From Bacteroidota bacterium (GTDB lineage Bacteria > Bacteroidota > Bacteroidia > Bacteroidales > F082): a stretch of DNA of 55,584 nt. Positions within the stretch are counted from its first letter, which is position 1, and every line of letters begins with the position of its first letter. Under the pieces are notes generated by a model. That model saw only the letters and a program-made list of their open reading frames with translations, was not told where the DNA came from and did no database searches. The stretch lies in contig JACNJS010000047.1 in the NCBI GenBank assembly GCA_014382445.1, positions 1-55,584 on the forward strand, read 5' to 3'. A program made the position numbers and the translations under genes. Below, one piece after another: positions 26,533-44,766 of this stretch.

Positions 26533-27369
26533 ATGAGCAAAATACTTGAAAAGGAGTTTTTTTCAAAGAATGTAGTTAAGATTGTTCTTGATGCTCCTGA
26601 AATTGCAAGGTCGCGAAAACCTGGACATTTTGTAATAATAAAAATTGGTGAAAAAGGTGAAAGAGTGCCACTAACAATTGCGGGTTCGGATATTGAAAAA
26701 GGAACAATCACACTTGTTGTACAGCAGGTAGGGGTTACGTCTGCAAAATTGTCAGCATTAGAGGTTGGTGATGAAGTAACCGATGTTGTAGGTCCACTAG
26801 GTCAGGCAACACATATTGAAAAAGTTGGTACAGTACTTTGTGCCGGTGGTGGTGTTGGCGTTGCTCCTTTGTTGCCAATAGTTGAGGGGTTTAAAAAAGC
26901 CGGTAACCGAGTGATTACTGTTCTTGCTGCCCGAAATAAAGACCTTGTTATACTTGAAGAACAAATGCGAGAGTTTTCTGATGAAGTAATTGTTATGACT
27001 GATGATGGGTCATCAGGTAAAAAGGGACTTGTAACAGCAGGCATGGAAGAAGTAATTAATCGTGAAAAAGTTGATCTTGCTGTAACTATCGGACCTGCTA
27101 TTATGATGAAATTTGCAGCCCTTACAACTAAGAAATATAATATTCCTACTCTGGCAAGTCTTAATACAATTATGGTTGATGGCACAGGGATGTGTGGTGC
27201 TTGTCGTGTAAGTGTTGGCGGAAAAACTAAGTTTGTATGTGTTGATGGTCCTGAGTTTGATGCACATGAGGTTGACTTTGATCAGATGTTAATGCGCCTT
27301 GGAGCTTATAAAGATATAGAACACAAGTCTTATCAAAAATATTTAGAAACAGTCGAAACAGTTGCATAA
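26533..27369 (+). CDS. nfnA: NfnA: ferredoxin:NADP oxidoreductase small subunit (FAD, [2Fe-2S])
   Basis: A 278-residue ferredoxin-NADP-reductase-fold protein. The N-terminal FAD domain includes GERVPLTIAGSD. The NAD-binding domain starts with CAGGGVGVAPLLP. The C-terminal cluster motif is D216-x4-C221-x2-C224-x11-C236, fitting the Asp/Cys-ligated [2Fe-2S] site known from the bifurcating NfnAB enzyme. With NfnB it would couple NADH and reduced ferredoxin oxidation to NADP+ reduction in the cytoplasm. The stop codon directly abuts the start of nfnB. Homologues are also labelled sulfide dehydrogenase or DHODH electron-transfer subunit; the neighbour decides for NfnA. Confidence 0.9.
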   Translation: MSKILEKEFFSKNVVKIVLDAPEIARSRKPGHFVIIKIGEKGERVPLTIAGSDIEKGTITLVVQQVGVTSAKLSALEVGDEVTDVVGPLGQATHIEKVGTVLCAGGGVGVAPLLPIVEGFKKAGNRVITVLAARNKDLVILEEQMREFSDEVIVMTDDGSSGKKGLVTAGMEEVINREKVDLAVTIGPAIMMKFAALTTKKYNIPTLASLNTIMVDGTGMCGACRVSVGGKTKFVCVDGPEFDAHEVDFDQMLMRLGAYKDIEHKSYQKYLETVETVA

Positions 27370-28857
27370 ATGGAAAATATAGCAGAATATCTAAAAGCCG
27401 AAAGACAACAGGAGTGGAGAGCGGAAATTAGAAAAAGCATCAAAACAAAGGAACGTATAGCTAAGGTTCGCGCTAAAATGCCAGAAGAAGATCCTGATAT
27501 TAGAAACAAAAGTAATGTAGAAGTAAATACCGGCCTTACTTTTGACCAGGCTGTTGCAGAGGCTCAACGCTGTATCGATTGTCCTGATCCTACTTGTATG
27601 ACAGGTTGTCCGGTTGGAATTAATATTCCGAAGTTCATTAAGAAAATCGAATCTAAAGATATTCTTGGGGCAGCTGCCGTTCTTAAAGAAACTAATGGAC
27701 TACCAGCAGTATGCGGACGAGTTTGTCCCCAGGAAAAGCAATGCGAAATTAAATGTTACTACACCGTAAAAATGGATGCAACACCTGTTGCTATTGGATT
27801 CCTGGAAAGGTTCGCCGCTGATTATGAAAGAGAAAGTGGTAGTGCTTCAGTTCCCGAATGTGCCGAATCAAATAATATAAAAGTAGCAGTTATTGGATCG
27901 GGCCCTGCTGGGTTAGCCGTTGCCGGCGATCTTGCGAAATTTGGTTACGATGTAACTGTTTTTGAAGCTCTTCACGAAATTGGTGGCGTACTAAAATATG
28001 GAATTCCCGAATTTAGGTTGCCAAATGAAATTGTTGATTTCGAGATTGATAACCTGCGTGCAATGGGAGTTAAATTCATAACTAACTTTATTGTTGGAAA
28101 AACATCATCCTTCGATGATCTGAGAAATGATGGATTTGAAGCTTTCTTTGTAGGATCAGGTGCAGGTTTACCAAATTTTATGAATATTCCTGGTGAGAAT
28201 TATAATGGCATATTTTCATCAAACGAATATTTAACGCGAGTTAACTTAATGAATGCAGCCAACCCTGAATTTGATACTCCTGTTATAAGTGGTAATTTAG
28301 TAGCCGTGATCGGAGGTGGAAACACTGCAATGGATTCGGTACGTACCTCTAAAAGGCTCGGTGCCGAAAGATCAATAATTATATACCGTCGGTCGGAAGA
28401 GGAAATGCCTGCAAGAGTTGAAGAAGTAATACATGCTAAGGAAGAAAGTATCGAGTTTATGAACCTTCATAATCCACTTGAATATTATGCCGATGCGGAT
28501 GGTCGTGTCAATAGTATGAAAATTCAGAAAATGGAACTCGGCGAACCAGATTCCTCGGGACGCCGCAGACCAATTCCTATTGAAGGATCGGAGTTTATTA
28601 TTGATGTTGACACCGTTGTTGTGGCTGTTGGTGTTTCGCCTAACCCTTTAATTCCTGCATGTTTACCCGAATTAGAAGTAACCAGATGGGGGACCATCGT
28701 TGTAAACGAAGAGACTATGCAATCATCAGTTCCTGATTTGTTTGCCGGTGGCGATATTGTAAGAGGCGGTGCTACTGTTATCCTTGCTATGGGTGATGGC
28801 CGTAAGGCTGCAGCAGGTATGCATCAGTATATACAGGGTAAGATTAAAACTAATTAA
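27370..28857 (+). CDS. nfnB: NfnB: NADPH-dependent bifurcating oxidoreductase large subunit (GltA-like)
   Basis: A 495-residue protein of the glutamate-synthase small-subunit-like family. Two [4Fe-4S] sites are visible: C68-x2-C71-x4-C76-x3-C80 and C115-x3-C119-x5-C125-x3-C129. A FAD fold follows (AVIGSGPAGLAVAGDLAKFG, near 172) and an NADP fold (VAVIGGGNTAMDSVRTSKRL, near 308). Such proteins are often annotated as homotetrameric NADPH glutamate synthase, but no large GltB subunit is nearby and the abutting nfnA makes electron-bifurcating NADH-dependent ferredoxin:NADP oxidoreductase the best call. The TAA of nfnA and the ATG of nfnB are adjacent, suggesting translational coupling. Confidence 0.9.
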   Translation: MENIAEYLKAERQQEWRAEIRKSIKTKERIAKVRAKMPEEDPDIRNKSNVEVNTGLTFDQAVAEAQRCIDCPDPTCMTGCPVGINIPKFIKKIESKDILGAAAVLKETNGLPAVCGRVCPQEKQCEIKCYYTVKMDATPVAIGFLERFAADYERESGSASVPECAESNNIKVAVIGSGPAGLAVAGDLAKFGYDVTVFEALHEIGGVLKYGIPEFRLPNEIVDFEIDNLRAMGVKFITNFIVGKTSSFDDLRNDGFEAFFVGSGAGLPNFMNIPGENYNGIFSSNEYLTRVNLMNAANPEFDTPVISGNLVAVIGGGNTAMDSVRTSKRLGAERSIIIYRRSEEEMPARVEEVIHAKEESIEFMNLHNPLEYYADADGRVNSMKIQKMELGEPDSSGRRRPIPIEGSEFIIDVDTVVVAVGVSPNPLIPACLPELEVTRWGTIVVNEETMQSSVPDLFAGGDIVRGGATVILAMGDGRKAAAGMHQYIQGKIKTN

Positions 28858-30268: not shown

Positions 30269-31555
30269 ATGAATAATACTTCATACAACCCATTTGAGAA
30301 CGCACAAAAGCAATTCGATCGTGCTGCAGATATGCTCGATTTAGATCAGGCAACGCGAGATCTTCTGAGGAACCCCATGCGTGAACATCATTTTTCTATT
30401 CCAGTTCGCCTCGATGATGGTACAGTAAAGGTTTTTAAAGGATATCGGATACAACATAACGATGCCCGTGGTCCTGCAAAGGGAGGGGTTCGATTTCATC
30501 CCCAGGAAACAGCTGATACAGTGCGCGCCTTATCAATGTGGATGACCTGGAAAACAGCCGTTGCTGATTTGCCTCTCGGTGGCGGAAAAGGTGGTGTAAT
30601 TTGTGATCCGCATGATTTAAGCGAACTTGAGCAGGAGCGGCTTTGCAGAGGTTGGATCAGGCAGGTGTATAAAAATATTGGCCCCGAAACTGATATCCCT
30701 GCTCCCGATATAATGACTAACTCTAAACACATGCTTTGGATGCTTGATGAATATGAAGTGCTTTCAGGAAAGAGAGCTCCAGGTACAATTACAGGTAAAC
30801 CGGTTGGTATGGGAGGGTCGCAGGGGCGTACCGAAGCCACTGGTTATGGTGTTATTATTATGGTTAGAGAAGCACTAAAAGAACTTGATACTTTACCTTC
30901 AAACACGATTGCCAGCCTACAGGGTTTCGGTAATGTATCGCAATACGCTATTGAGTTATTTACTCAAATAGGAGGAAAGGTAATTTGTGTTTCGTCATGG
31001 AATCAGGAGGATCTGACCAGTTATTCTTATAAAAAAGATTCAGGAATTGATCTTGATGAGTTAAAGTCGATCACAGATAATTTTGGCGGGATAATTAAAA
31101 ACAAAGCAATAGATCTTGGTTATGAAATACTTCCTGGCGACGCATGGCTTGAGCAGAATGTTGACATACTTATTCCTGCCGCTATTGAAAATCAAATAAC
31201 ACTCGAAAATGTTAATAAAATTAGCAATCGGGTAAAAATTATTGCGGAAGGTGCTAATGGTCCAACTTCTCCGGAAGCATCTGATATAATTAATGACCGT
31301 AATATTTTTGTTATACCTGATTTTCTTGCTAACGCTGGTGGTGTTACCTGTAGTTATTTTGAACAGGTTCAAAGTAATATGAATTATTATTGGGAAAAAG
31401 ATGAAGTACTAAGTAAACTCGATGTAAAAATGACCTCGGCATTTATTGCAGTAAGCGATTTTGCAAAGGATAACAATCTAAATATGAGGGATGCTGCATA
31501 TGTGATATCAGTTGACAAGGTAGCAAGAGCATGCCACGATAGGGGGTGGGTTTAA
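30269..31555 (+). CDS. gdhA: Glutamate dehydrogenase (Glu/Leu/Phe/Val dehydrogenase family)
   Basis: A 428-residue protein of the hexameric small-type family. The substrate region VFKGYRIQHNDARGPAKGGV (K71) is followed by LPLGGGKGGV with the catalytic K107, APDIMTNSKHMLWMLDEYE, and a Rossmann domain (SLQGFGNVSQYAIELF). The C-terminus has DFLANAGGVTCSYFEQ. It interconverts glutamate and 2-oxoglutarate plus ammonia; the NAD/NADP preference cannot be read with confidence. The length and sequence type resemble GudB/RocG-like enzymes rather than the 445-residue biosynthetic GdhA. It precedes the ATP-grasp genes by 86 bases on the same strand. Confidence 0.92.
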   Translation: MNNTSYNPFENAQKQFDRAADMLDLDQATRDLLRNPMREHHFSIPVRLDDGTVKVFKGYRIQHNDARGPAKGGVRFHPQETADTVRALSMWMTWKTAVADLPLGGGKGGVICDPHDLSELEQERLCRGWIRQVYKNIGPETDIPAPDIMTNSKHMLWMLDEYEVLSGKRAPGTITGKPVGMGGSQGRTEATGYGVIIMVREALKELDTLPSNTIASLQGFGNVSQYAIELFTQIGGKVICVSSWNQEDLTSYSYKKDSGIDLDELKSITDNFGGIIKNKAIDLGYEILPGDAWLEQNVDILIPAAIENQITLENVNKISNRVKIIAEGANGPTSPEASDIINDRNIFVIPDFLANAGGVTCSYFEQVQSNMNYYWEKDEVLSKLDVKMTSAFIAVSDFAKDNNLNMRDAAYVISVDKVARACHDRGWV

Positions 31556-31641: not shown

Positions 31642-33378
31642 ATGGTCGACAAAAAAAAAATAGTGCCTTTTAACCGAAGTTCTTTTTTAAATTCTGATAA
31701 AAGAATAACATACATCGGCGATGGTTCGATGGGAGGAAAAGCACAAGGTCTTATTGATATTGATGATGTATTAAAGCGTGAAATTAAACCTGAAAAATAT
31801 CCGGGTATTTTTGTTGATATTCCTGCTATGACGGTCATACGCACCGACGTATTTGATGCCTTTATTAAACGCAACAAACTTTTCGAGATTGCTCTTTCCA
31901 ACATCTCCGATGGACGAATAGCACACGCATTTCAAAAAGCAAGTCTGCCCTTCGAGGTACTTGGTGATTTAAGATCATTAATATCACAGGTGCATACTCC
32001 ACTGGCTGTGCGCTCGTCGAGCATGCTTGAAGATGCTCAACACGAGCCATTTGCCGGAATTTATGGCACTAAAATGACTCCAAATAATCAGCCGGATGCA
32101 ACCGGAAGGTTTAATAAGCTTGTTGAAGCAATTAAATATGTTTATGCTTCAACATATTTTAAAGCAGCAAAAGATTATATGAAAGCCACTACTCATAGTA
32201 CTGAGGATGAGAAAATGGCCGTAATTATTCAGGAAGTAATAGGTAAAAAGCATGAAAGCAGGTACTATCCCGAATTATCAGGAGTTGCTCGGTCATATAA
32301 CTTTTATGCATTTGGAAATGCCTCTCCAAAAGATGGTATTATTAACCTTGCATTAGGTTTGGGCAAGACAATAGTTGATGGAGGTGTTTCATGGTCGTTT
32401 TGTCCTACTTTTCCAAAAGCCGATCCTCCTTTCGGGTCGGTTAGCGACATGCTTAAAAACACTCAAAACGATTTCTGGTCAGTTAATATGGGTCGAGCTC
32501 CGGCTTACGATCCGGTTAACGAAACAGAGTATATGGCAAACGACAACATTTTCATTGCTGAAAAAGACAATACACTTAAATATATTGCATCTACTCTTGA
32601 TAGTAATTCAGGCACGGTAATAACCGGCATTGGTAAAAAAGGGCCACGGGTATTAAACTTTGCGCCAATTCTACGTTTAAATAATATTCCATTGGTCGAT
32701 CTGATATCAGAAATGCTCAAGATATGCGAAAAAGCCGTAGGTGCCACTGTTGAAGTTGAATTTGCAATGACATTTAATAATGATAAACCGCATCGGTTTG
32801 GTTTCTTGCAGGTTAGACCTATGGTTGTGTCAACCGAAGAAGTTAAGGTTGAATTGGATGAACTAAAAGGCGACAATATTTTGTGCTCCTCAACAGGAGT
32901 TCTTGGTAACGGAACCAATAAACTGATTACTGATATCATTTATGTTAAATCCAACAAGTTTGATGCTGCATTAACTTATAAAATTGCTGCCGAACTCGAA
33001 AAAGTTAACGAATTATTAATTTCTGAAAACCGACCATATTTACTAATGGGTTACGGAAGGTGGGGTACATCCGATGCCTGGGCGGGGATACCTGTTAACT
33101 GGGGGCAAATTTCGGGGGCAAAAGTTATTGTTGAAGCCCCATTAACCGGAATGAACTCAGAATTGAGCCAGGGTTCTCACTTTTTTCATAACGTTACCGG
33201 ACTTGGTGTGTTATATTTTTCTGTGCCTTATTCAGGTGAATTTCCCATTGATTGGAATTGGTTAGATAATCAGGAAGCTGTAAAAGAAACCGACTTGATT
33301 AGACATGTTAAACTCCAAGATCCCATTCATGTTAAAGTAGATGGAAGAAGTGGGCGTGGGATAATCTGTAAATCATAA
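31642..33378 (+). CDS. PEP/pyruvate-binding (PPDK_N, ATP-grasp) protein without phosphohistidine domain
   Basis: A 578-residue protein, paralogue A of three. It shows the PPDK/PEP-synthase ATP-binding signatures: SMGGKAQGL (29-37, Lys33), AVRSSSMLED (122-131), FAGIY (137-141), IIQEVIG (195-201), and EVEFA with FLQVRPM (371-394). It stops short of the phosphohistidine swivel domain and the PEP/pyruvate barrel, so it cannot be a complete PEP synthase. Instead there is a ~180-residue C-terminal region with GYGRWGT (470-476) and SQGSHFFHNV (H513), shared with the other two paralogues. It is 10 bases upstream of paralogue B. The ATP-grasp assignment is secure; the reaction is unknown. Confidence 0.88.
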   Translation: MVDKKKIVPFNRSSFLNSDKRITYIGDGSMGGKAQGLIDIDDVLKREIKPEKYPGIFVDIPAMTVIRTDVFDAFIKRNKLFEIALSNISDGRIAHAFQKASLPFEVLGDLRSLISQVHTPLAVRSSSMLEDAQHEPFAGIYGTKMTPNNQPDATGRFNKLVEAIKYVYASTYFKAAKDYMKATTHSTEDEKMAVIIQEVIGKKHESRYYPELSGVARSYNFYAFGNASPKDGIINLALGLGKTIVDGGVSWSFCPTFPKADPPFGSVSDMLKNTQNDFWSVNMGRAPAYDPVNETEYMANDNIFIAEKDNTLKYIASTLDSNSGTVITGIGKKGPRVLNFAPILRLNNIPLVDLISEMLKICEKAVGATVEVEFAMTFNNDKPHRFGFLQVRPMVVSTEEVKVELDELKGDNILCSSTGVLGNGTNKLITDIIYVKSNKFDAALTYKIAAELEKVNELLISENRPYLLMGYGRWGTSDAWAGIPVNWGQISGAKVIVEAPLTGMNSELSQGSHFFHNVTGLGVLYFSVPYSGEFPIDWNWLDNQEAVKETDLIRHVKLQDPIHVKVDGRSGRGIICKS

Positions 33379-33388
33379 ATCAACTGTT

Positions 33389-36300
33389 ATGACTGATAAT
33401 AAACATCTGGATAAAATTATTATTGAGCTAAAAGAACGAGCCAAAGAGCTCAATTGTCTTTACAAAATTCAGGAGCTTCTAAACAAAACCGACAGTATAA
33501 ATGATGAAAACTGTAAAGAAATTAGTGACGCAATTTCGCCAGGTTTCCAATATCCCGATATTTGTGTGGTGAAAATGACATGCCCCCAGGGAACTCATTG
33601 CACAAGCAACTTTAAAGAAACTGAGTGGGTGCTTAGCGCTGATATATTAGTTCAGGATGAGATTGTTGGAAATATCAAGGTGTACTATACTGAAGAAAGG
33701 CCTGATGCTGATGATGGCCCATTTTTAAAGGAAGAACGAAAGCTGATTGATAATATAGCAGAGCGAATTGGGTTGCAAATATTGCATGGTAAATTAAAAT
33801 CTGTATTTGAAAAACAAAAAAAGAACGGCGAAAAAAGAGATTGGTGGGTTGTATTGGATATGCTCAAGCAAACAGACCCAAAATTACTTGTCAGGCTTTC
33901 CCGTAAGATGGTAAATTACCTTTGTTGGACAGGTGTAAATGAGGCTGATCAGTTGTTGGAAAGGTTTAGCCCTGTGTTTAAGAATGAAGGTGGTAGCTTA
34001 TTAACTGAAGTAAATAAACCATATCAGCGCCAAGCTGATAGTGATATGATGGCCTTGTCGTATGAGATATTTGAGGTAGCTGGAAGGCATATGGACGAAA
34101 AGAGAATTCTAGAAACAATACAAAAATGGACAAAAGAAGATAAATCAGGATTTTTAACCGAAGTAATGGAAAATTCGGGTTCAACACTTGCAAATATTAG
34201 CACGGCCATCGAACGATACCATCATTTGATACCTCATATGTTAGAATTGTCGGGGCCACGCGAAAAAAGCCTCAAGGTTGCTTTAATTCGAAGACTCCTT
34301 TCCGATCAGTCGGTATTTATAGCAATAGCAAAGGATTTTATAGAAATTGACAGTTTCAATGAATTAATGCAACATATTATTTACCCTACTAATAGTCACG
34401 GTAAGCTGGGTGGAAAAAGTGCCGGTTTATTTCTTGCAAAACACATATTAGCAGATGCTGTAAGTGAAAATGAGCTTTTAAAAAAGATCAAAATACCTCG
34501 TACATGGTATCTAACCTCTGATGGCCTGTTAAATTTTATGAGTTATAATAACCTGGAGGAAATTATGGAACAAAAATACAAAGAGATAGGAAGGGTACGA
34601 CAGGAATATCCATATGTTGTACAGGTATTCAAAAACTCTTTGTTCTCTCCTGAAATTGTAAAAGGGTTGTTAACAGCGCTGGAAGATCTTGGTGATGTAC
34701 CACTTATTATACGAAGTTCAAGCTTGTTAGAAGATCGTGTTGGAGCAATTTTTGCCGGAAAGTATAAGAGTTTGTTTATTGCTAATAAAGGCACTAAGGA
34801 GGAGAGACTGGTTGATTTAATGGATGCTATTGCAGAAGTTTATGCTTCTACCTTTGGCCCCGACCCAATAAATTACAGAGCCCAGAATAACTTGCTCGAC
34901 TATCAGGAAGAAATGGGCATAATGATTCAGGAAGTTGTAGGTGCCAAAGCCGGACCATACTTTTTCCCATCCTTTGCCGGTGTGGCATTTAGCCAAAACG
35001 AATATATGTGGTCGAGCCGAATTAAGCCTGAAGACGGACTTGTACGCCTTGTTCCGGGACTTGGCACACGTGCCGTTGACCGCCTAAGTAATGATTATCC
35101 GGTTTTGCTTTCGCCGGGTCAGCCGGGGCTTAGAGTTAATGTAACAGTTGATGAGATAATAAGTTACTCACCACGGTTTATTGATGTGATAAATCTTGAT
35201 ACCGGCACTTTTGAAACAATTGAACTTGAAATGCTTCTTAAGCGCTATGGTAAAGAATACCCGGCCATTAGCCGAGTTGTTTCTGTTCTTAAGCAAAATT
35301 TTATTCAGCCTGCCCGGCCTCTTGGTATGAATTTTTTGAAAGATAGTTTTGTAGCCAATTTTGAAGGGTTGGTTAAAAGAACTACTTTTTTAAAAGAAAT
35401 TCACGATATGCTCAGCATTCTTCAAAAGCGATATGGTCATCCGGTTGACATTGAGTTTGCTCATGATGGCAAGGATTTTTATTTATTGCAATGTCGTTCG
35501 CAAAGCTATGGATACCAGAGTGAACCGGCTGAAATTCCTATTGATTTTGATAAAAATGCAGCATTATTTTCAGCTAATAAATACATTACTAACGGAACAG
35601 TATCAGATATTAGTCATGTAGTTTATGTTGACCCTTCCGAGTATTCAGAATTAACGGATCACAAGAGTTTGCTTAACGTAGGAAAAGCCATTGGCCTTCT
35701 AAATGAACTTCTTCCAAAACGTCAATTCATACTGATGGGCCCAGGGCGTTGGGGTAGCCGCGGTGATATAAAACTTGGTGTAAGTATCACCTATTCTGAA
35801 ATAAATAAAACAGCAATGCTCATCGAAATTGCAAAAAAGAAAAAAGATTATGTTCCGGATTTGTCATTTGGCACGCATTTTTTTCAGGATTTAGTTGAAG
35901 CAAACATTAAATATTTACCTCTTTATCCTGATGATAACGACACCATTTTTAACTACGACTTTTATAATAATTCTGAAAACATTTTCCCTGTTTTAGTTCC
36001 TGACCTTGCACATTTGCAAAATGTTATCAAGGTAATTGATATTTCAGCTACAATCGGTAATGTTCTTAATATTTATATGAATGCTGATAAAGAATTGGCC
36101 GTCGGAATAATTGAGGAACCTGACGAAAGTAGATTCAAAAAAGAAGTATTGCAAAAAAAACCTGCGTTGACAGTTGATAAAGACAGGCATTGGCGCTGGC
36201 GATTACGCATGGCCGAAAAGTTAGCAGCAAAACTTGATGCAAAACACTTTGGTGTTGTTGGACTGTATATTTTCGGTAGCACTAAAAACGCTACTGCAGG

Positions 36301-36562
36301 TCCGGGTAGCGATATTGATTTATTAGTACATTTTAGAGGTACTGATAAACAGCATGATGAATTGATTTCATGGTTAGACGGTTGGAGTATTAGTTTAGGC
36401 CAAGTAAATTTTGAGAGAACTGGTTATAATACCGATGGGTTATTAGATGTACATTTTATTACTGATGAGGATATTTCGAACAAAACTAGTTACGCCATTA
36501 AAATTGGCGCCGTTACTGATGCTGCAAGACCTCTTGTGATAGGAATGCCTCAGCCTTCTTAG
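33389..36562 (+). CDS. GAF-like / PPDK_N ATP-grasp / nucleotidyltransferase fusion protein
   Basis: A 1057-residue protein, paralogue B. The order is: a GAF-like sensor (about 1-145, with CPQGTHC and GPFLKEERKLIDNIAERIG); a helical linker (145-330); a PPDK_N ATP-grasp domain (LGGKSAG around 343, IRSSSLLED from 441, QCRSQ near 700); the shared C-terminal region with GPGRWGS (784-790) and FGTHFFQD (H830); and finally a nucleotidyltransferase domain with GST (963-965) and GPGSDIDLLV (D975, D977), the Pol-beta/MNT-type metal motif. The ATP-grasp region carries IFAGKYKS where relatives have FAGIY. No swivel or barrel domain exists. The combination suggests a ligand-sensing, nucleotide-transferring regulator, but no substrate can be named. 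Confidence 0.85.
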   Translation: MTDNKHLDKIIIELKERAKELNCLYKIQELLNKTDSINDENCKEISDAISPGFQYPDICVVKMTCPQGTHCTSNFKETEWVLSADILVQDEIVGNIKVYYTEERPDADDGPFLKEERKLIDNIAERIGLQILHGKLKSVFEKQKKNGEKRDWWVVLDMLKQTDPKLLVRLSRKMVNYLCWTGVNEADQLLERFSPVFKNEGGSLLTEVNKPYQRQADSDMMALSYEIFEVAGRHMDEKRILETIQKWTKEDKSGFLTEVMENSGSTLANISTAIERYHHLIPHMLELSGPREKSLKVALIRRLLSDQSVFIAIAKDFIEIDSFNELMQHIIYPTNSHGKLGGKSAGLFLAKHILADAVSENELLKKIKIPRTWYLTSDGLLNFMSYNNLEEIMEQKYKEIGRVRQEYPYVVQVFKNSLFSPEIVKGLLTALEDLGDVPLIIRSSSLLEDRVGAIFAGKYKSLFIANKGTKEERLVDLMDAIAEVYASTFGPDPINYRAQNNLLDYQEEMGIMIQEVVGAKAGPYFFPSFAGVAFSQNEYMWSSRIKPEDGLVRLVPGLGTRAVDRLSNDYPVLLSPGQPGLRVNVTVDEIISYSPRFIDVINLDTGTFETIELEMLLKRYGKEYPAISRVVSVLKQNFIQPARPLGMNFLKDSFVANFEGLVKRTTFLKEIHDMLSILQKRYGHPVDIEFAHDGKDFYLLQCRSQSYGYQSEPAEIPIDFDKNAALFSANKYITNGTVSDISHVVYVDPSEYSELTDHKSLLNVGKAIGLLNELLPKRQFILMGPGRWGSRGDIKLGVSITYSEINKTAMLIEIAKKKKDYVPDLSFGTHFFQDLVEANIKYLPLYPDDNDTIFNYDFYNNSENIFPVLVPDLAHLQNVIKVIDISATIGNVLNIYMNADKELAVGIIEEPDESRFKKEVLQKKPALTVDKDRHWRWRLRMAEKLAAKLDAKHFGVVGLYIFGSTKNATAGPGSDIDLLVHFRGTDKQHDELISWLDGWSISLGQVNFERTGYNTDGLLDVHFITDEDISNKTSYAIKIGAVTDAARPLVIGMPQPS

Positions 36563-36563
36563 A

Positions 36564-37436
36564 TTAAATAAGTTCGCGCTCACTACTCTTCGGATCATCA
36601 GGGTTAAACCTTACAAGGGCAAGCTCATTTCCATCATGAGCTGCTGATATTGCTGTTGTGTTTCCAATTTGTTCATACCAGTGTCCTGTAATTCTTGCGG
36701 ATTCATGAATATGTCCGTGTAGTGTTATCATTGGGTGCCTTTCTGCAATAAACCTGCTAATAGCTATACTCCCAACATGTACATCAAGCGGAACATGATC
36801 TATTTTTCTTCCATCCAAGGCAGCTCTGTCGAGTTTTGTTTTGTACGGAGGTGAATGGAAAAGAAAGATTGACCTTTCCAGTTTGTTATCACCGGCAAGT
36901 AATTTTAAATCTTTTTGAATTGTTTGATGGATTATTTTTTTTCTATCAACTTTTTTAAAGTAGGCCCCCTCTTCTGGTGGTAGGCAGCCAGGGTCGGTGT
37001 ATCGCGAAACATCATAGCGTTCCCAGTCTTTTATGATAAACGGCGTTGGTGGTACATATGAATAACCATATACATCAAAATCCGAAAACGTAACCTTTTT
37101 GTTATGTATATACTCCCAATAACCAAGTTGTTCACCTTTTTTTATGTCATCCTCATCACCTTTACCATCATCATTTCCAAGTATTAAAAATACTCTGGGA
37201 TAATTATTCTTAAGCGTTTTTTTTAAACTCGAAAATCCACTAAAAAGAACATCATTGATAAAATCACCTGTAGTCTTACTTTTTGATGTTAGTGCAAATA
37301 ATCCGGAAGGCAGCAAATCACCACCCCAAAAAACAGCCTTTGGCTTTTCTTTTTCAATTGCACTGAATAGTTTTTGGTAGCGAGAATGAGAGCCGTGAAG
37401 ATCTGATACAAAAAAACAGGTATTCATTAATATCAT
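36564..37436 (-). CDS. Metallophosphoesterase (calcineurin-like)
   Basis: A 290-residue protein with the five phosphoesterase blocks: SDLHG near the start, WGGDLLPSG, LGNDDG, FHSPPY and HGHIHES. Both metal sites are therefore intact; the third block reads GND where many relatives have GNH. It has no signal peptide and should be cytoplasmic. The start may be the ATG at 37436 or three codons later at 37427. The gene is convergent with paralogue B (stop codons almost touch), inside the cluster of ATP-grasp proteins, and could remove a phosphate or nucleotide mark made by them, though this is conjecture. Confidence 0.85.
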   Translation of the reverse strand: MILMNTCFFVSDLHGSHSRYQKLFSAIEKEKPKAVFWGGDLLPSGLFALTSKSKTTGDFINDVLFSGFSSLKKTLKNNYPRVFLILGNDDGKGDEDDIKKGEQLGYWEYIHNKKVTFSDFDVYGYSYVPPTPFIIKDWERYDVSRYTDPGCLPPEEGAYFKKVDRKKIIHQTIQKDLKLLAGDNKLERSIFLFHSPPYKTKLDRAALDGRKIDHVPLDVHVGSIAISRFIAERHPMITLHGHIHESARITGHWYEQIGNTTAISAAHDGNELALVRFNPDDPKSSERELI

Positions 37437-37475
37437 CGTAAAATAAAATCATATCAAAGATAATTTTATTTTTAG

Positions 37476-37483
37476 TAGTTTTG
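37476..37483 (+). promoter_or_regulatory. Candidate -7 element for the histidine kinase gene
   Basis: TAGTTTTG is a perfect TAnnTTTG match ending 37 bases before the ATG at 37521. No TTG at -33 spacing. Confidence 0.35.
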
Positions 37484-37520
37484 TAGCATTAGTACGTAGA
37501 AATTTATTTTCCCCACTAAT

Positions 37521-40370
37521 ATGACCAGTACTTATCGCCACACTTATTTAATCTTTTCAATATTGATATTATCTCTTTTATTAGTTACGAATAGCGCTTT
37601 CAGTGATTCCTCAAATGAAATAAAAAAATCTGATTCAAATGAGGTAATCGACCTTTGTGATTCTGCGATAATTAATATTGACGATTATAATTCAAGTATA
37701 ACTTTTGCACGTAAAGCAAATCAAATAGCCTTTCTAAATAAAATTGATAACTGTTTAGCTGAATCGGAGTTTACGCTTGGTACTGTTTTTTTTCAACATT
37801 CGTTATACGATAGCGCATTAATTTATTTTAAAGATGCTTTTCCAAAATATTCAAAAATAAAAAATGAAACACGAATTATTGAAACTCTCGAGTTTCTTAG
37901 TAGGGGTTATACTGAGTTATATGATTTTAAAGAGTCAATTAATTATGCTTTAATTGGTGTTAGTTATTCTGATTCGTTAGAATTAATAGGGTCTGAAGGG
38001 AAATTTTACTTTTACCTTGGATACTGTTATGAAGAGTTAGGACTTTATCAGAAAGCTGTTGATGCTCTGAATAGTGCTTTAAGAGCTTTTGAATCAGTGC
38101 AGGACAGTGCTGCCCTAAGTTCTACACTAATAAATATTGGAATAATTTTTTCACGCAATGAAAATTTTTCTGATGCCTATGATTATACTGCCCGCGCACT
38201 TGCAATTAGTACTAAACTTAATGATAAGAAAGCGATATCAATATGTTTAAATAATATAGGTGATATTTACAGTTTAACGCATGAATACAATAAAGCACTT
38301 GAGTATTTTAAACGCACATTAGAAATAAACAGGGAACTTGATGATACTGAAGGCGTAGCAATTAGTTTAAATAATATTGGAGATAGTTACCGAAATTTGA
38401 AAGATACTGTACTTGCCATTAGCTACTACTCAAAAAGCATTAATACTGCAAACAGAAATAATTATCCATCAAGGGCTACTCCCTTGGCAAGCATCGGAGA
38501 TATTTATTTAAAGAAAGGTGAACTTAAACTGGCACTTAAAAATGCTCTTGAAAGCCTTGATATAGCTGTATCATCAAACATCTCTAAAAATATGCTTTCC
38601 TCTTATGAATTGTTGCACAAAATTTACTCAGCAATGGGTAAATATGAAAATTCATACAATTACCTTGTTAAATATCGAAATTTGTACGACAGCACCTATT
38701 CTGTTACCAAAAGTAAACACATACTGGAGGTTAAAGCTAAATATGATGATGAAAAACAGAAGTCGGAGATTACCAGCTTAAAAGAAAAAAGTACAAATGA
38801 AACAAAACGCCGAACAAATTTAATGATAATTATTGCTATTACTTTATTGGTGATAATAATTATGTTAATCATTAATATATTATATCGCCGATCGAGAAGA
38901 CTTGTTTATAAACAAAAGCAATATTATGAAAAGCTACTGGAGAGATCGGAAGATTTTATTTTTGTAATAAGTAAAGATGGCAAAGCCAAGTATATTAGTC
39001 CGTCGTATGAAAGAAAAGTAGGCAGGGAAATAAATTCCCGCATTGGTAAAAGCGTTTTTGAATTTGTTCATCCGGATGATATTGAATTTGTAAAAAAAGA
39101 ATTTGCAGCACTTGTAAAAGATAAAAAACCTCGCAGCATCGATTTTAGAATGCAAACTGAAACAAATGGTTGGGTTTATGTGCAAACATACGGACAGAAT
39201 CTAATCGGCGATGGTGCTATTGATGGTATTGTAGTAAACTTTTGGGATATTACTCAAAGAAAGAAAAATGAAGAGCTAATCAAAGAAAGTGAATTGAGAT
39301 TCAGAGAAATATTTAATGCATTTCCTGATATATATTTTCAAGCAGATTTACGAGGTAAAATAATAGAAATAAGTCCATCGGTTACTAAACTAACAGGTTT
39401 TACACGTGAGGAGATAATAGGGGTAACATCAAAAAAATATGATAATTATATATCTGATTGGGAGAAGATAGGAGCTGAATTAGAATCAAATTACTCAGTT
39501 CATGATTATGATACTCAGGTAACTACAAAAGATGGAAATATTCTTCACTGCTCTTTATCCGCTGAAATGATATTTTCTGAAGAAAATAATGCCCCAATGG
39601 GTATAAAAGGAGTTATTCGTGATATTAGCAGTAGGGTAAAAAATCAGAAATCACTAAGTGACTCTGAAACTAAACTTAAAGAAGCAAACCAATCTAAAGA
39701 AAAACTCTTTTCTATTATTGCTCATGATCTCATTGGCCCTATTGGTACCAACAAATCTATAGTTGATCTGATAGTTAGTCAGGTTGATGAACTATCACAT
39801 GAAGAGATTGTTACACTTATTTCGTCATTGAAACCATCCCTGGATTCCACATATGCTTTAATCGATAACCTTCTTTCATGGGCACGAATTCAACAACATC
39901 AATTAAAGCCCAGTCCAGAACTCATCTCACTAAATAAATTAGTTCAAGAAATGGTTGAATTATTAAAAGACCAGGCTATAAGGAAATCAATAATTATAAC
40001 GATAGCAAGCGATAAGCCTGTTACAATATTTGTCGATAAAAACCAATTGGGTATTGCAATAAGGAATTTGATTTCAAATGCAATTAAATTTTCATATCCA
40101 GAAAGTGAGATTTTAGTCACCATTAGTAGTACTGACGAACTGGCTGAAGTAAAAATTTCCGATTCTGGTATTGGCATGACTAAAACCCAAATTGATAATG
40201 TATTAGCCGGAAAGGGTAGTACGGAAGTTAGGAGGGGGACGGACAATGAAAAGGGTACTGGGTTTGGTTTAGTTATTGTAAATGAATTTGTTAAAAATAA
40301 TAATGGCGTTCTCAAGGTCGCAAGCAAAAAGGGTGAAGGCTCCACTTTTACTGTTTCTTTTCCAATTTAA
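37521..40370 (+). CDS. Sensor histidine kinase with TPR and two PAS domains
   Basis: A 949-residue membrane kinase. The order is: signal/hydrophobic segment (about 8-28); periplasmic tetratricopeptide repeats (about 70-390, e.g. CLNNIGDIYSLTHEYNKALE); a coiled coil; a transmembrane helix (about 433-457); PAS 1 (about 470-585); PAS 2 (about 592-715); HisKA with H735 in FSIIAHDLIGPIG; and a HATPase_c domain with NLISNAIKFS (N box), DSGIGM (G1) and GTGFGL (G2). The usual Arg-x-Pro after HD is replaced by IGP, common in this TPR-kinase group. No receiver is fused, but paralogue C (40725), with two receiver-like domains, is the next gene and may be its partner. Confidence 0.9.
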   Translation: MTSTYRHTYLIFSILILSLLLVTNSAFSDSSNEIKKSDSNEVIDLCDSAIINIDDYNSSITFARKANQIAFLNKIDNCLAESEFTLGTVFFQHSLYDSALIYFKDAFPKYSKIKNETRIIETLEFLSRGYTELYDFKESINYALIGVSYSDSLELIGSEGKFYFYLGYCYEELGLYQKAVDALNSALRAFESVQDSAALSSTLINIGIIFSRNENFSDAYDYTARALAISTKLNDKKAISICLNNIGDIYSLTHEYNKALEYFKRTLEINRELDDTEGVAISLNNIGDSYRNLKDTVLAISYYSKSINTANRNNYPSRATPLASIGDIYLKKGELKLALKNALESLDIAVSSNISKNMLSSYELLHKIYSAMGKYENSYNYLVKYRNLYDSTYSVTKSKHILEVKAKYDDEKQKSEITSLKEKSTNETKRRTNLMIIIAITLLVIIIMLIINILYRRSRRLVYKQKQYYEKLLERSEDFIFVISKDGKAKYISPSYERKVGREINSRIGKSVFEFVHPDDIEFVKKEFAALVKDKKPRSIDFRMQTETNGWVYVQTYGQNLIGDGAIDGIVVNFWDITQRKKNEELIKESELRFREIFNAFPDIYFQADLRGKIIEISPSVTKLTGFTREEIIGVTSKKYDNYISDWEKIGAELESNYSVHDYDTQVTTKDGNILHCSLSAEMIFSEENNAPMGIKGVIRDISSRVKNQKSLSDSETKLKEANQSKEKLFSIIAHDLIGPIGTNKSIVDLIVSQVDELSHEEIVTLISSLKPSLDSTYALIDNLLSWARIQQHQLKPSPELISLNKLVQEMVELLKDQAIRKSIIITIASDKPVTIFVDKNQLGIAIRNLISNAIKFSYPESEILVTISSTDELAEVKISDSGIGMTKTQIDNVLAGKGSTEVRRGTDNEKGTGFGLVIVNEFVKNNNGVLKVASKKGEGSTFTVSFPI

Positions 40371-40424
40371 ATCAATGGACTCAAATTTCAAAAACGAAGT
40401 GCCTTGAAAATTGTTAGTCGAATT

Positions 40425-40529
40425 GATCCCGAGCAAGGCCGAGGGATCTCCTTCGTGTACTATTCCCCGCCCTTTGGGGCGAATAACAAAAATAATTCAT
40501 TTAAGATACCCCACTGCTTTGCGGCGGGG
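40425..40529. repeat. Cluster of three small hairpins (dispersed-type intergenic repeat)
   Basis: Three inverted repeats follow one another: GATCCC/GGGATC (40425-40430 with 40443-40448); CGCCC/GGGCG (40468-40472 with 40477-40481); and CCCCACTGC/GCGGCGGGG (40509-40517 with 40521-40529, loop TTT). The last resembles the GC-rich CCCGCTGC...GCGGCGGGG repeat scattered between Bacteroidota genes. Its GC content contrasts sharply with the flanking AT-rich DNA. The gap 40371-40724 has no gene. Confidence 0.65.
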
Positions 40530-40699
40530 AGTTTCATTAGTGTTTTATATTGGTTGCCCATATAACTTTTGCTTGTGTTTGAATCTGAGGTGCTATTAAA
40601 CATAAAATTCCTTAATTGGTTCAACTTTTAGCTTGCCCTCAATCTTATTAATCAAACAATATTTATAGTTCAAGAATAAATATCCACCAATGAAATATT

Positions 40700-40707
40700 T
40701 ACATTTG
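40700..40707 (+). promoter_or_regulatory. Candidate -7 element for the receiver/ATP-grasp gene
   Basis: TACATTTG matches TAnnTTTG and ends 17 bases before the ATG at 40725, supporting that start and separate transcription from the kinase gene. No standard -33 TTG. Confidence 0.35.
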
Positions 40708-40724
40708 TAAGCAAATTTCAAATT

Positions 40725-43706
40725 ATGGTTTCTTCAAAAGCAGAAATACTGAGTCAGAATTTTTATTTCAGCGAAACATCGTTTATCAATCTTATGAAAA
40801 AAAGGATAAATAACGTTTTACTGATTTCCAGTGTATATGATGCTTTTATGCTTGAAGAAGATGGCAGGATAGATGAACAGATTTTTCATGAATATACCTC
40901 ACTTAACCTTAGATATCCACCACAATTTTTAAAAGCAACAAACGAATCAGAAGCCTTTGTTGTGTTAAAGGAAGAGAGAATTGATCTGGTGATTTCAATG
41001 CTTAGTGCCGAGAAATCGTCAACATTTGAGCTAGCCAATAATATCAAGTCAAAATATCCTGAAATCCCTATTGTAATACTTACGCCCTTCTCGAGAGCAG
41101 TGAGTCTTAAAATCGAAAAAATCGACCATAGCTCTATCGACTATATCTTCAGTTGGCTGGGCAATGCCGATATATTGCTGGCAATAATTAAGCTTATTGA
41201 AGACAAAATGAATGTTGATAATGATGTTGCTGAAGTTGGCGTACAAGCAATAATTCTGGTAGAAGACAATATCAGGTTTTATTCCAGCTATTTGCCAATA
41301 ATGTACAAAATTATCTTTAAACAGTCGAAATCGTTTGTTAGCGAAGGCCTTAATGAGCATCAACGAATGTTGAGAATGAGGGGAAGGCCAAAAATTTTAC
41401 TCGCAACAAATTATGAAGAAGCCTTCAGCTTTTATGAAAAATATAAATCAAATCTGCTGGGTGTTATTTCTGATATAGCTTATTCAAGAAATGGAATTAT
41501 TGATAAAAATGCCGGAATTGAGTTATGCACGCTAATAAAAAAAGATAATCCTTTTACTCCATTGTTGCTTCAATCATCCGATTTTAAAAAATTTAAAAAG
41601 GCGAAGGAGCTTAGAGTAGGGTTTCTTGACAAAAATTCAAAAACGCTTACATTCGACCTCAGAGAATTCATTAAGGAGTACTTTGCTTTCGGCGATTTTG
41701 TTTTTAAAGACCCCAAAATGGGTATAGTTGTAACCAGGGCACATGATCTTAAATCCCTTCAGGAAAAAATATTGACTGTACCTGCAACCTCCCTCCGTTA
41801 TCATATTGTTCGAAATCATTTTTCAAAATGGTTACGTGCAAGGGCATTGTTTCCGCTTGCCGAGTTATTCAGATATTTTACAAGCGACGACTTTAACGAT
41901 ATTAATGAAATAAGGTCGTTCATTTTTAATGCAATATCGCAGTTTAGAATGTCGAAAGCACGTGGCGTGATTTCATCTTTTAACCGTGATACATTCGATA
42001 AATATTTTAGCATTTCACGCATCGGACAAGGATCAGTAGGAGGTAAGGCCAGAGGGTTGGCTTTCCTCGATTCGTTAATTAAGCGTAACAATCTTTATAA
42101 TTATTTTGATAAAGTTGATATAAACATTCCAAAAACAGTAGTAATCGGAACCGATATGTTTGATGAGTTTATGGACATAAATAAGCTACATACAATTGCG
42201 CTATCCGATAATATTAGTGATGAGGAAATCTTAAGACATTTTTTAGAAGCCCGCTTGCCCGATCATGTATTTGCTGATATTCATAAAATAGCCAGCAGTA
42301 TCGAAAGTCCTCTTGCAATCAGGTCGTCTAGTTTGTTGGAGGATTCACATTACCAGCCTTTTGCCGGTATTTATAATACTTATATGATTCCTTTTCGTCC
42401 GAATGATGTTGATGGCATGTTCATGATGATGCGTACTGCTATAAAAGCTGTTTATGCCTCAGCGTATTATGCCGACAGTAAAGCATATATGCAGGCTACA
42501 TCAAATGTGATTGACGAAGAAAAAATGGCAATAGTAATACAGGAAGTTGTTGGCAGTAAGTATGGTGATAGGTATTATCCTACTATATCGGGAGTTGCCC
42601 GATCAATCGATTATTACCCGCTTGCCCCCGGAAAACCTCAGGATGGAACAGTTAGTATTGCGTTAGGGCTTGGTAAATATGTAGTAGACGGAGGATTATC
42701 GTTGAGGTTCTGCCCTAAATATCCAAAGAAGGTGCTTCAAATATCTACTCCCGAAATGGCTATCAAAGAAACACAAAAGAATTTCTATGCCCTCGACCTG
42801 AGTAATAAAATTTTTGAACCTCAACCAAATGATTGTGCAAGCCTGCTAAAGCTTAAAATTAAGGATGCAGAAGAGGATAATTCAATTCGTGATATAGCAT
42901 CAACCTATGTGCTGCACGATAATGTTATACGTGATGGATATAATTATAAAGGTAAAAAAATAATTACTTTCTCTAACATTTTGAAACATAATACTTTCCC
43001 CATAGCCGCAGTTATCGATAAAGTGCTAAAGCTTGGTGAAGAAGAAATGGGCAATCCGGTAGAAATTGAATTTGCTGTTGATCTGAATGTTCCAAAAGGA
43101 GAAAAGATATTTTTTAAATTATTGCAAATCAGGCCGGTTGTTTCGAAAGACGATAGTATTACTATTTCGGAGGACGAAATGAAAACCAATGGGTCATTAA
43201 TTATATCAAAATCGGCATTGGGTAACGGTGTTATTGATAATATTTTTGATATTGCGTATGTTCGCCCTCAAAATTTTGATCCGGCAAAAACCAAAGATAT
43301 TGGTGGTTATATAAATGAGCTGAATAAAAAATTTATTGAGCAGGATTCAAATTATATTCTGGTAGGACCGGGCAGATGGGGATCAGCCGATCCATGGCTC
43401 GGAATACCTGTTAACTGGTCGCAAATATCAGCCGCAAGGTTAATAGTTGAGTCGGGGCTCGAAAATTATCGTATCGACCCGAGTCAGGGAACGCACTTTT
43501 TTCAGAATTTAACATCTTTCAGAGTAGGGTATTTTACTGTTAACCCGTTTATTGACGATGGTTTTTATGATATTGATTTTCTGGATAAACAACCGGCAGT
43601 TTTTGAAAATAATCTTGTAAGGCATGTGAGATTTAAAAATCCCTTCATAATCAAAATTGATGGCAAAAAGAATTTGGGTGTGGTTTTCAAACCAACTATT
43701 GTTTAA
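40725..43706 (+). CDS. Tandem receiver-like / PPDK_N ATP-grasp fusion protein
   Basis: A 993-residue protein, paralogue C. Residues about 27-165 form a receiver-like fold whose phosphoacceptor position is not Asp (VISML). Residues about 172-330 form a second receiver with the full set: acidic ED in ILVEDN, D250 in VISDIAY, Ser in LLLQSSD and Lys in FLDKNS. A helical linker leads to the ATP-grasp domain (GSVGGKARGL with K441, AIRSSSLLED from 532, PFAGIY, EIEFA and LLQIRPV). The shared C-terminal region has GPGRWGSADPW (881-891) and SQGTHFFQN (H924). No phosphohistidine or barrel domain is present. It looks like a response regulator whose output is an ATP-grasp module. Its 3' end overlaps the convergent next gene by 11 bases. 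Confidence 0.87.
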   Translation: MVSSKAEILSQNFYFSETSFINLMKKRINNVLLISSVYDAFMLEEDGRIDEQIFHEYTSLNLRYPPQFLKATNESEAFVVLKEERIDLVISMLSAEKSSTFELANNIKSKYPEIPIVILTPFSRAVSLKIEKIDHSSIDYIFSWLGNADILLAIIKLIEDKMNVDNDVAEVGVQAIILVEDNIRFYSSYLPIMYKIIFKQSKSFVSEGLNEHQRMLRMRGRPKILLATNYEEAFSFYEKYKSNLLGVISDIAYSRNGIIDKNAGIELCTLIKKDNPFTPLLLQSSDFKKFKKAKELRVGFLDKNSKTLTFDLREFIKEYFAFGDFVFKDPKMGIVVTRAHDLKSLQEKILTVPATSLRYHIVRNHFSKWLRARALFPLAELFRYFTSDDFNDINEIRSFIFNAISQFRMSKARGVISSFNRDTFDKYFSISRIGQGSVGGKARGLAFLDSLIKRNNLYNYFDKVDINIPKTVVIGTDMFDEFMDINKLHTIALSDNISDEEILRHFLEARLPDHVFADIHKIASSIESPLAIRSSSLLEDSHYQPFAGIYNTYMIPFRPNDVDGMFMMMRTAIKAVYASAYYADSKAYMQATSNVIDEEKMAIVIQEVVGSKYGDRYYPTISGVARSIDYYPLAPGKPQDGTVSIALGLGKYVVDGGLSLRFCPKYPKKVLQISTPEMAIKETQKNFYALDLSNKIFEPQPNDCASLLKLKIKDAEEDNSIRDIASTYVLHDNVIRDGYNYKGKKIITFSNILKHNTFPIAAVIDKVLKLGEEEMGNPVEIEFAVDLNVPKGEKIFFKLLQIRPVVSKDDSITISEDEMKTNGSLIISKSALGNGVIDNIFDIAYVRPQNFDPAKTKDIGGYINELNKKFIEQDSNYILVGPGRWGSADPWLGIPVNWSQISAARLIVESGLENYRIDPSQGTHFFQNLTSFRVGYFTVNPFIDDGFYDIDFLDKQPAVFENNLVRHVRFKNPFIIKIDGKKNLGVVFKPTIV

Positions 43707-44766
43707 CTAATAGATAATTGGAGCGCAGCAAGTTTGCAGCTAAGCAGGAATGAATAGGTAATACTCCAATTATATCCCCGGGTTTAAACTTTTTCAAATC
43801 CTTCTCCGGCATTTTGATAATTCCATGTTCCTGCGATAAAGATGATACATAAGCTCCGGGTATCGGCGCACTCCAACCGTCTTTTGTAAAATTAACTACG
43901 TATCCAAAAAGCCTGAAATCATTATCTGCGGCAATAAACTCTTTCGATAAATGAATAGCTCCTCCGTAAATTACGAGTTCGTTTCTTTGGGGATGAGCGG
44001 CAACAACAGGGCAGGCAACTGCAATCGCTATATCTTCAATTGCGCATGATCCCATATGATATTGCATTACATCATAATAAACAAAATTACCGGGACGAAT
44101 TTCATCAAATCCTGCTAAATTATCAGTCATGCTGCATGATGGTGTGTCACCATATGAAATAATAATATTCGGAAATAGCTTAATGTAATTTTGTTTCAAT
44201 TTGTTAAGAATATCTTTGCTATCTTCCATTATCTTTAGAATCTCATTTTTCCCTTTGGCTGAGTAAGTGTGTCCTGCATGACTAAGAAATCCTTTGAAAT
44301 TAAGATGTTTATGCGAGTCAAGTAAGTGAATGATCTTATCTAATTCGGGGTCATCTGGTATCAATCCTGTACGGTGATATCCAGTATCAATTTTAATAAA
44401 TATTCCTAAAGAATGAGTAATAAAACTACTCAATACAATTACTGTGTATTGAGATTCTACTAATATATTTAAATTTACCCTGCTGGCTAATTCGTTTATA
44501 TCATCAATTTCCGGAATATTAACAGGGAAAGCAATGGTGATGTCGTTCCACCCGTAATCAGCAAAATATAAAGCCATTGAAACTGATGAAACAGTAATGC
44601 AATTGATTCCATTTTGTTTAAAAAGCTCTCCAATTTCAGCTGATTGATGCGTTTTGAAATGAGGCCTGAAAATTGTACTGCTTCTTTCAACCTTGCTAAC
44701 CATGTTAGCTAGGTTTCTGGTAACTTTTTGTTGGTCTATAATTAATGTCGGGACTTTTATTTTCAT
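43696..44766 (-). CDS. PLP enzyme of the D-threonine aldolase / D-serine dehydratase-like family
   Basis: A 356-residue protein with an alanine-racemase-type N-terminal barrel. The PLP lysine is K38 in FRPHFKTHQ, followed by FIKIDTGYHRTGL, LSHAGHTYSA and ISYGDTPSCS. A C-terminal D-serine-dehydratase-like domain holds the metal pair in PIHSCLAANL (His and Cys). Family members cleave D-threonine to glycine and acetaldehyde or dehydrate D-serine; the exact substrate is not decidable here. It starts 3 bases after the stop of the upstream gene at 44770 on the same strand. Confidence 0.82.
   Translation of the reverse strand: MKIKVPTLIIDQQKVTRNLANMVSKVERSSTIFRPHFKTHQSAEIGELFKQNGINCITVSSVSMALYFADYGWNDITIAFPVNIPEIDDINELASRVNLNILVESQYTVIVLSSFITHSLGIFIKIDTGYHRTGLIPDDPELDKIIHLLDSHKHLNFKGFLSHAGHTYSAKGKNEILKIMEDSKDILNKLKQNYIKLFPNIIISYGDTPSCSMTDNLAGFDEIRPGNFVYYDVMQYHMGSCAIEDIAIAVACPVVAAHPQRNELVIYGGAIHLSKEFIAADNDFRLFGYVVNFTKDGWSAPIPGAYVSSLSQEHGIIKMPEKDLKKFKPGDIIGVLPIHSCLAANLLRSNYLLVKQ

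Follow-up and report, generated by a model that had tools for sequence, protein, structure and literature searches.

To our knowledge, the characterised enzymes that combine an ATP-grasp domain with a swivel domain, namely PEP synthase, PPDK, rifampin phosphotransferase (RPH) and glucan water dikinase, have small molecules or glucans rather than proteins as their substrates. In RPH, a rifampin-binding domain is located between the ATP-grasp and swivel domains. Covalent control in nitrogen metabolism is known from the GlnE/GlnD enzymes, which modify glutamine synthetase/PII. Glutamate dehydrogenase (GDH) links carbon metabolism to that of nitrogen and, in gut Bacteroidales, is a main enzyme of ammonia assimilation; an old report is said to describe its reversible inactivation in Bacteroides. 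The window analysed here (the whole stretch of DNA, 55,584 nucleotides of contig JACNJS010000047.1 from a Bacteroidota bacterium) encodes three proteins, denoted A, B and C, that share a PPDK_N-type ATP-grasp domain and a C-terminal domain (CTD). The coupling of this family to GDH is strong, and the family is best read as an ATP-driven phosphoryl-transfer module dedicated to GDH, which would probably place the enzyme under reversible covalent control, with receiver and other domains as inputs.

Domain architecture of proteins A, B and C

All three genes are located on the forward strand. Protein A (578 aa; 31642..33378) consists of the ATP-grasp domain (residues 29-404; 31726..32853) directly followed by the CTD (residues 405-578; 32854..33375), and no other domains were found. 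Protein B (1057 aa; 33389..36562), whose gene starts after a gap of 10 bp, combines an N-terminal region of ~330 aa, for which no Pfam family was found, with the ATP-grasp domain (residues 339-713; 34403..35527), the CTD (residues ~730-905; 35576..36103) and a minimal nucleotidyltransferase domain containing the GSTKN...SDIDL motif (36176..36559; PF01909, E 2.7e-8). Protein C (993 aa; 40725..43706) starts with a receiver-like region, followed by a canonical receiver (residues ~176-330; 41250..41714; PF00072, E 1.6e-7) with the probable acceptor Asp250 (41472-41474), a stretch with weak, below cut-off similarity to DUF5752, the ATP-grasp domain (residues 437-811; 42033..43157; PF01326, E 1.2e-42) and the CTD (residues 815-993; 43167..43703). 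The 3' end of gene C overlaps by 11 bp a gene on the opposite strand that encodes a D-serine-dehydratase-like PLP enzyme (43696-44766). A sequence-only reading of this DNA had pointed out PPDK_N signatures in the three ORFs starting at 31642, 33389 and 40725; these signatures (GGK, RSSS, [ED][VI]EFA and LQ.R) were re-found, and the Pfam profile PF01326 matches A, B and C with E-values of 5e-36, 8e-54 and 1e-42, respectively. The proposed fusions to a receiver in C and to a nucleotidyltransferase in B were likewise recovered by Pfam profiles, but the GAF domain that had been placed in B was not, with no GAF match in residues 1-334. The lack of a PEP/pyruvate barrel was also borne out: there is no PEP-utilizers_C match in A, B or C, and the C-terminal TIM barrel is missing, with A and C stopping after the CTD and B after the nucleotidyltransferase.

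The accessory domains are themselves conserved. Among 34 C-type proteins, the receiver residues D181, D250, S284 and K303 are kept in 33, 34, 33 and 32, respectively. The nucleotidyltransferase columns G963, S964, D975 and D977 are conserved in 46-48 of 53 B-type proteins, and the strict GS...SDID pattern is found in 35 of the 53, some of the remaining ones being cut by contig ends. This domain is absent from shorter B relatives of ~776 aa.

The CTD comprises ~175 residues and contains two motifs, GxGRWG and G[ST]HFF, with the histidine of the latter, a candidate phosphoacceptor, at position 513 in A (GSHFF; codon 33178..33180), 830 in B (35876-35878) and 924 in C (43494-43496), exactly as the sequence-only reading had it. 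Every pair among 54 CTDs scores above 40 bits in BLAST, which indicates that this is one homologous domain. The claim that none of the three proteins has a phosphohistidine swivel holds for Pfam sequence models: PF00391 matches neither A, B and C (E up to 1) nor 20 individual CTDs (E up to 10). When the same 20 members were scanned singly against Pfam, nothing significant was detected, the best E-value being 0.06 among five unrelated families with one member each; the CTDs of A, B and C themselves likewise gave no significant Pfam match. A PDB sequence search with the CTD yielded no credible relative (best E 0.09), and an HHalign comparison with 24 swivel sequences gave a probability of 0.1%. 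In global and low-threshold profile alignments of ATP-grasp plus CTD with 21 ATP-grasp plus swivel sequences (and with one PEP synthase alone), the ATP-grasp domains align and the histidines stay unpaired. Foldseek run with the CTD alone gave no significant match. The predicted fold, in contrast, looks swivel-like. In structural comparison of an AlphaFold model, the best 9 of 50 rows are swivel domains of PPDK and rifampin phosphotransferase, with modest scores, and the modelled ATP-grasp plus CTD aligns with the ATP-grasp plus swivel of PEP synthase. Given these top rows and the shared position, the CTD is probably a swivel (beta/beta/alpha) domain that has diverged strongly. The earlier suggestion of a new acceptor domain is thus only partly retained: the conserved histidine is still best read as a possible acceptor, but its replacing a swivel is weakened because the CTD, by its predicted fold, probably is one itself. 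In the model of A, a helix spans residues 513-520 with His513 at its start, and we infer that the G[ST]HFF histidine would be the phosphate acceptor.

K33, R124, E130, D131, E373, Q390, R473, W474, E498, S509, H513, F514 and F515 (numbering of A) are identical in all 96 rows of an alignment that covers bacteria and archaea (93 of 96 listed relatives plus the three window proteins), although the underlying genome collection was scanned by the GRWG and GTHFF patterns, so that motif conservation in this sample is partly selected. A second alignment was gathered by whole-protein similarity from genomes of the window's phylum and consists of 54 rows, that is, 61 CTD hits minus 7 that were copies of the window genes from other loci or truncated pieces. 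Here, all 54 rows keep the residues of the ATP site and of the CTD motifs, His513 among them; R392 is kept in 53. We take K33, R124, E373 and Q390 to be the equivalents of PPDK catalytic residues; in favour of this assignment, the EFA and LQ.R region aligns by profile with the PPDK encoded in the same genome. The three relatives outside the 96-row set are L089:2869-4668 and L093:8768-10537, both with GTHFF, and L122:11119-12900, in which the histidine is replaced by aspartate. The latter replacement (GTDFY) occurs in an Anaerolineae tandem copy of a B relative (L122:10606-12954) that lies beside an intact copy and is likely an inactive partner subunit.

Association with glutamate dehydrogenase

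A GDH gene of the 428-aa type (30269..31555, forward strand; ELFV_dehydrog E 6e-69, N domain E 2e-54) lies 86 bp upstream of gene A and is the first gene of a probable gdh-A-B unit. In a promoter/terminator scan that gave 10 terminator-like sites compared with 8.6 in shuffled sequences, the forward strand has none in the gdh-A and A-B intergenic gaps. The best NCBIfam model for the window GDH is GdhA_Arch (476 bits, below the cut-off of 750). The 428-aa GDHs are marked by a short insertion in the coenzyme-binding domain (residues ~244-254; 30998-31030) that contains Trp244 in 50 of 52 sequences and is absent from 20 GDHs of other types; additional subfamily-specific residues include H115, H154, Y252 and W293. 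The insertion is possibly a contact or control site, or might reflect altered coenzyme use. About 1.4 kb upstream of the GDH gene, two genes (26533-28857) appear, by eye, to encode proteins similar to an NADPH:ferredoxin-type reductase subunit and to the small subunit of glutamate synthase.

The same arrangement recurs in other genomes. Where a locus retains the gene preceding the cluster, this gene is a same-strand GDH in 16 of 19 loci with B or A+B from the window's phylum and in 33 of 64 loci of the genome collection, with six more of the latter in which GDH is in the second position; the two samples overlap, with L028/L047 and L036/L061 apparently being the same contigs. For C-type genes (24 members in 20 loci), GDH is immediately upstream in 16 and an immediate neighbour on either side in 19. 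Clustering of neighbours across 101 loci identified only GDH and a metallophosphoesterase as widely recurrent: the GDH cluster is represented in 57 loci (50 genes at position -1 on the same strand) and the metallophosphoesterase cluster in 27 (25 at +1). This survey thus adds to the sequence-only reading a GDH link that was absent from it. The GDHs that accompany the family belong to at least two unlike subfamilies; of the five scanned from C-type loci, four reach the threshold of a model for NADP-specific or related GDHs and the fifth stays below it. In Parabacteroides distasonis, the C-type gene is head to head with the annotated gdhA, and the same arrangement is seen in a Phocaeicola locus; in a Prevotella C-type locus, no GDH was found within the stretch examined.

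The association extends to presence and absence across genomes. Among 247 genomes of the window's phylum, 21 encode B, and the identical set of 21 encodes the window-type GDH (Fisher p ~7e-31, with genomes treated as independent though related), under cut-offs set after viewing the output (at least 63% identity for GDH, the next group being at most 52%, and at least 680 bits for B; G109 is counted on two fragments). Presence and absence both occur in four of the seven families concerned, and in three genomes (G109, G160 and G196) B and GDH are located on separate contigs. Among 149 genomes from the phylum to which the acidobacterial locus L072 belongs, the window-type GDH is present in 30 of 36 genomes with B versus 2 of 113 without it (odds ratio ~278), again under cut-offs chosen after the output was seen (B, E at most 1e-100; GDH, at least 598 bits; G383 counted on a 66%-identical partial match), and 27 of the 36 have B no more than 6 kb away from a GDH. 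In five of the six exceptions, B is diverged (38-40% identity) and the GDH shares 50-53% identity with that of the window; in one genome with a diverged B (G428), the two genes are ~2 kb apart, and in another exception (G419) there is no GDH match at E 1e-40. All 39 genomes that lack GDH immediately upstream at the locus, in some cases because of a contig end, encode some GDH: it is at least 58% identical over most of its length in 22, represented by a fragment of at least 60% identity in two more, and less similar in the remaining 15, which include most of those from Chloroflexota. Since all 21 B-bearing genomes of the window's phylum have the 428-aa GDH and at least 12 of them also have A, B is the core component for this GDH and A is an optional partner. 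Given that its members tend to sit beside particular GDHs and to come and go with them, the family probably controls GDH.

Distribution of the family and other neighbours

The scan of the genome collection identified at least 559 confirmed relatives. Judged by their titles and tree labels, the 80 loci that were kept belong to Bacteroidota, Ignavibacteriota, Calditrichota, Acidobacteriota, Planctomycetota, Chloroflexota, Spirochaetota, Bacillota and others, with archaeal members in Thermoplasmatota and Methanomethylovorans. A tree of the 96 rows, built by a quick method, divides into two deep, fully supported sides, one with the A and C types (27 rows) and the other with the B types (69 rows). 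A (or C) and B are paired in tandem in 11 of the 20 loci from the window's phylum, always with an overlap of 4-8 bp. The genome collection shows such pairs in 26 of 78 loci (two of the 80, L052 and L081, have no member ORF), 11 of these with overlaps of that size; many of the contigs are short. The proteins thus do occur together elsewhere, and in five archaeal loci (L094, L101, L105, L107 and L111) the gene order is GDH, C type, B type, phosphoesterase. Paralogue counts are lower bounds, with three candidates scored per genome where more existed. The genome of the window encodes a fourth, C-like paralogue of 1064 aa on contig C19 (L003:1471-4665), with no GDH ORF in the 4.7 kb read around it; the two other GDHs of this genome are on contigs C91 and C29. 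The fourth paralogue is convergent with a gene whose product, by eye, is a membrane fusion protein of the efflux type. Another contig of this genome, C51, encodes a 959-aa protein (L128:16-2895) with a weak swivel match (20.4 bits, below the cut-off) followed by a region that looks PPDK_N-like by eye, the reverse of the usual order. Two records labelled 'Bacteriophage sp.' from human faeces (MT835667.1 and MT835811.1) also encode the CTD and are perhaps bacterial contigs.

The metallophosphoesterase, which is convergent with B in the window (36564..37436, reverse strand; PF00149, E 7e-10), directly follows the cluster in 10 of 20 loci of one sample and 15 of 69 of the other (25 of 89 together), and its residues D12, H14, D40, N88, D89, H194, H240, H242 and H244 are kept in 27-28 of 28 sequences. 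It is the candidate for a reversing phosphatase. Upstream of C, a sensor histidine kinase with TPR-PAS-PAS architecture (37521..40370, forward strand) is possibly the input to the C receiver; no histidine kinase is among the recurrent neighbour clusters of the 101 loci. Both the kinase and the phosphoesterase had been recognised in the sequence-only reading. A defence-system role was considered and set aside, PADLOC matches being single candidate components and confined to the nucleotidyltransferase and phosphoesterase parts; a toxin-antitoxin reading of the MntA-like domain of B was also rejected, its 20.9 bits being far below the cut-off of 60.

Proposed mechanism, alternatives and known systems

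Quite possibly, although at a little less than an even chance, A, B and C represent one widespread family of two-domain phosphoryl-transfer proteins that serve GDH. ATP bound in the ATP-grasp domain would phosphorylate the invariant G[ST]HFF histidine of the CTD; the CTD would then swing and deliver the phosphoryl group, either to GDH itself or to some ligand or carrier that acts on it, thereby altering GDH activity, and the metallophosphoesterase would reverse the transfer. The phosphohistidine chemistry, the direction of transfer and GDH as the acceptor are what we infer from the domains and their neighbours. B, with or without its partner A, would serve the 428-aa GDH and C, with its canonical receiver, would often serve an NADP-specific GDH, whereas the receiver and the extra domains of B might supply nitrogen or energy signals. 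Regulation rather than metabolism, as the sequence-only reading had it, is still the best interpretation; the likely target, GDH, was missing there and follows from the link described above. A broader and more tentative proposal is that this is an ancient mode of post-translational GDH control, common to bacteria and archaea, in which barrel-less, ATP-driven histidine-phosphoryl-transfer proteins would phosphorylate GDH or a carrier acting on it, two-component receivers and other sensor domains being in control and a dedicated phosphoesterase forming part of the system.

The same gene-order and co-occurrence evidence would fit ATP-gated regulators that bind GDH non-covalently and switch with ATP or signal state, the histidine being a structural or internal-switch element. 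The profile alignments, which do not support equivalence of the histidines, agree with this explanation, but the invariance of the ATP-site residues and the histidine over 96 rows favours chemistry, and the phosphoesterase that follows the cluster in 25 of 89 loci also speaks for a covalent modification; on balance, we consider a non-covalent regulator unlikely, if worth serious attention. A metabolic role, as an ATP-dependent kinase or ligase of a small molecule of glutamate, 2-oxoglutarate or ammonia metabolism made beside GDH for its substrate or product, would be in line with the small-molecule and glucan substrates of the ATP-grasp/swivel enzymes named above, and the invariant R473, W474 and E498 of the CTD could bind such a substrate. 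Nevertheless, no third, substrate domain was found, the receiver Asp250 is kept in all 34 C-type proteins examined, a nucleotidyltransferase and varied N-terminal regions are present, and the partners are at least two unlike GDH subfamilies, all of which makes an enzyme of this kind rather improbable.

The NTP_transf_2 domain of B with its conserved GS...SDID and the link to a nitrogen enzyme raise the possibility that this domain nucleotidylylates GDH, with the ATP-grasp domain and CTD sensing the energy state and gating the reaction. We regard this as decidedly improbable given that the domain is missing in A, in C and in the ~776-aa B relatives, several of which (L100, L103 and L110) still cluster beside the 428-aa-type GDH, so that the nucleotidyltransferase is an add-on. 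Finally, GDH and the family genes might share an operon through hitch-hiking, with no functional interaction. Passive synteny does exist: the next neighbour clusters, in 10-11 loci, are histidine biosynthesis genes (identified in the one locus scanned) that lie downstream and were judged incidental. Yet the co-occurrence is kept in the three genomes with B and GDH on different contigs, and the association spans bacteria and archaea as well as two unlike GDH subfamilies, which renders mere hitch-hiking very improbable indeed.

If true, the broader proposal of an ancient GDH control system could explain the reversible GDH inactivation in Bacteroides. Covalent GDH control in many phyla would be a counterpart to the control of glutamine synthetase by GlnE/PII. 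With a clear target, an invariant candidate histidine in GTHFF and a candidate reversing enzyme, this large unnamed family is directly testable. The openly licensed literature searched yielded no account of PPDK_N-type proteins together with GDH; the individual domain types are known, and a barrel-less two-domain ATP-grasp/swivel-like protein tied to GDH is apparently undescribed there. In one annotated gut record, the family gene is labelled only 'PEP/pyruvate-binding domain-containing protein'. Two reports that came up were set aside: in the parts available, nothing ties the extracellular-vesicle 'phosphoenolpyruvate synthase' (PMC12096838) to this family, and the PPDK_N proteins near SelO in enterobacteria described with ProFaNA (PMC10364804) appear unrelated to it.

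In overall make-up, the family resembles a pared-down pyruvate dikinase. With PEP synthase and PPDK it shares the PPDK_N ATP-grasp, whose ATP-site residues are intact, and the next domain has a predicted fold that looks swivel-like, but it differs in lacking both a sequence match to PF00391 and the PEP/pyruvate barrel, and in possessing the conserved GRWG segment in the CTD, the receiver or nucleotidyltransferase fusions and the GDH link. Unlike in the rifampin phosphotransferase RPH-Lm, the ATP-grasp domain and CTD are contiguous, with no antibiotic-binding domain in between. The N-terminal phosphohistidine domain of Enzyme I and EI(Ntr) differs in that EI uses PEP, whereas the family has an ATP-grasp domain. 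With response regulators, C shares a receiver in which D181, D250, S284 and K303 are conserved, but its output is the ATP-grasp/CTD pair rather than a DNA-binding domain or a c-di-GMP enzyme. The resemblance to GlnE/GlnD is one of analogy, in that a dedicated enzyme of the nucleotidyltransferase fold, which in B has the GS and DxD motifs, covalently controls a central enzyme of nitrogen metabolism; in the present family, by contrast, the target would be GDH, and the shared core is the ATP-grasp domain with the CTD, the nucleotidyltransferase being optional.
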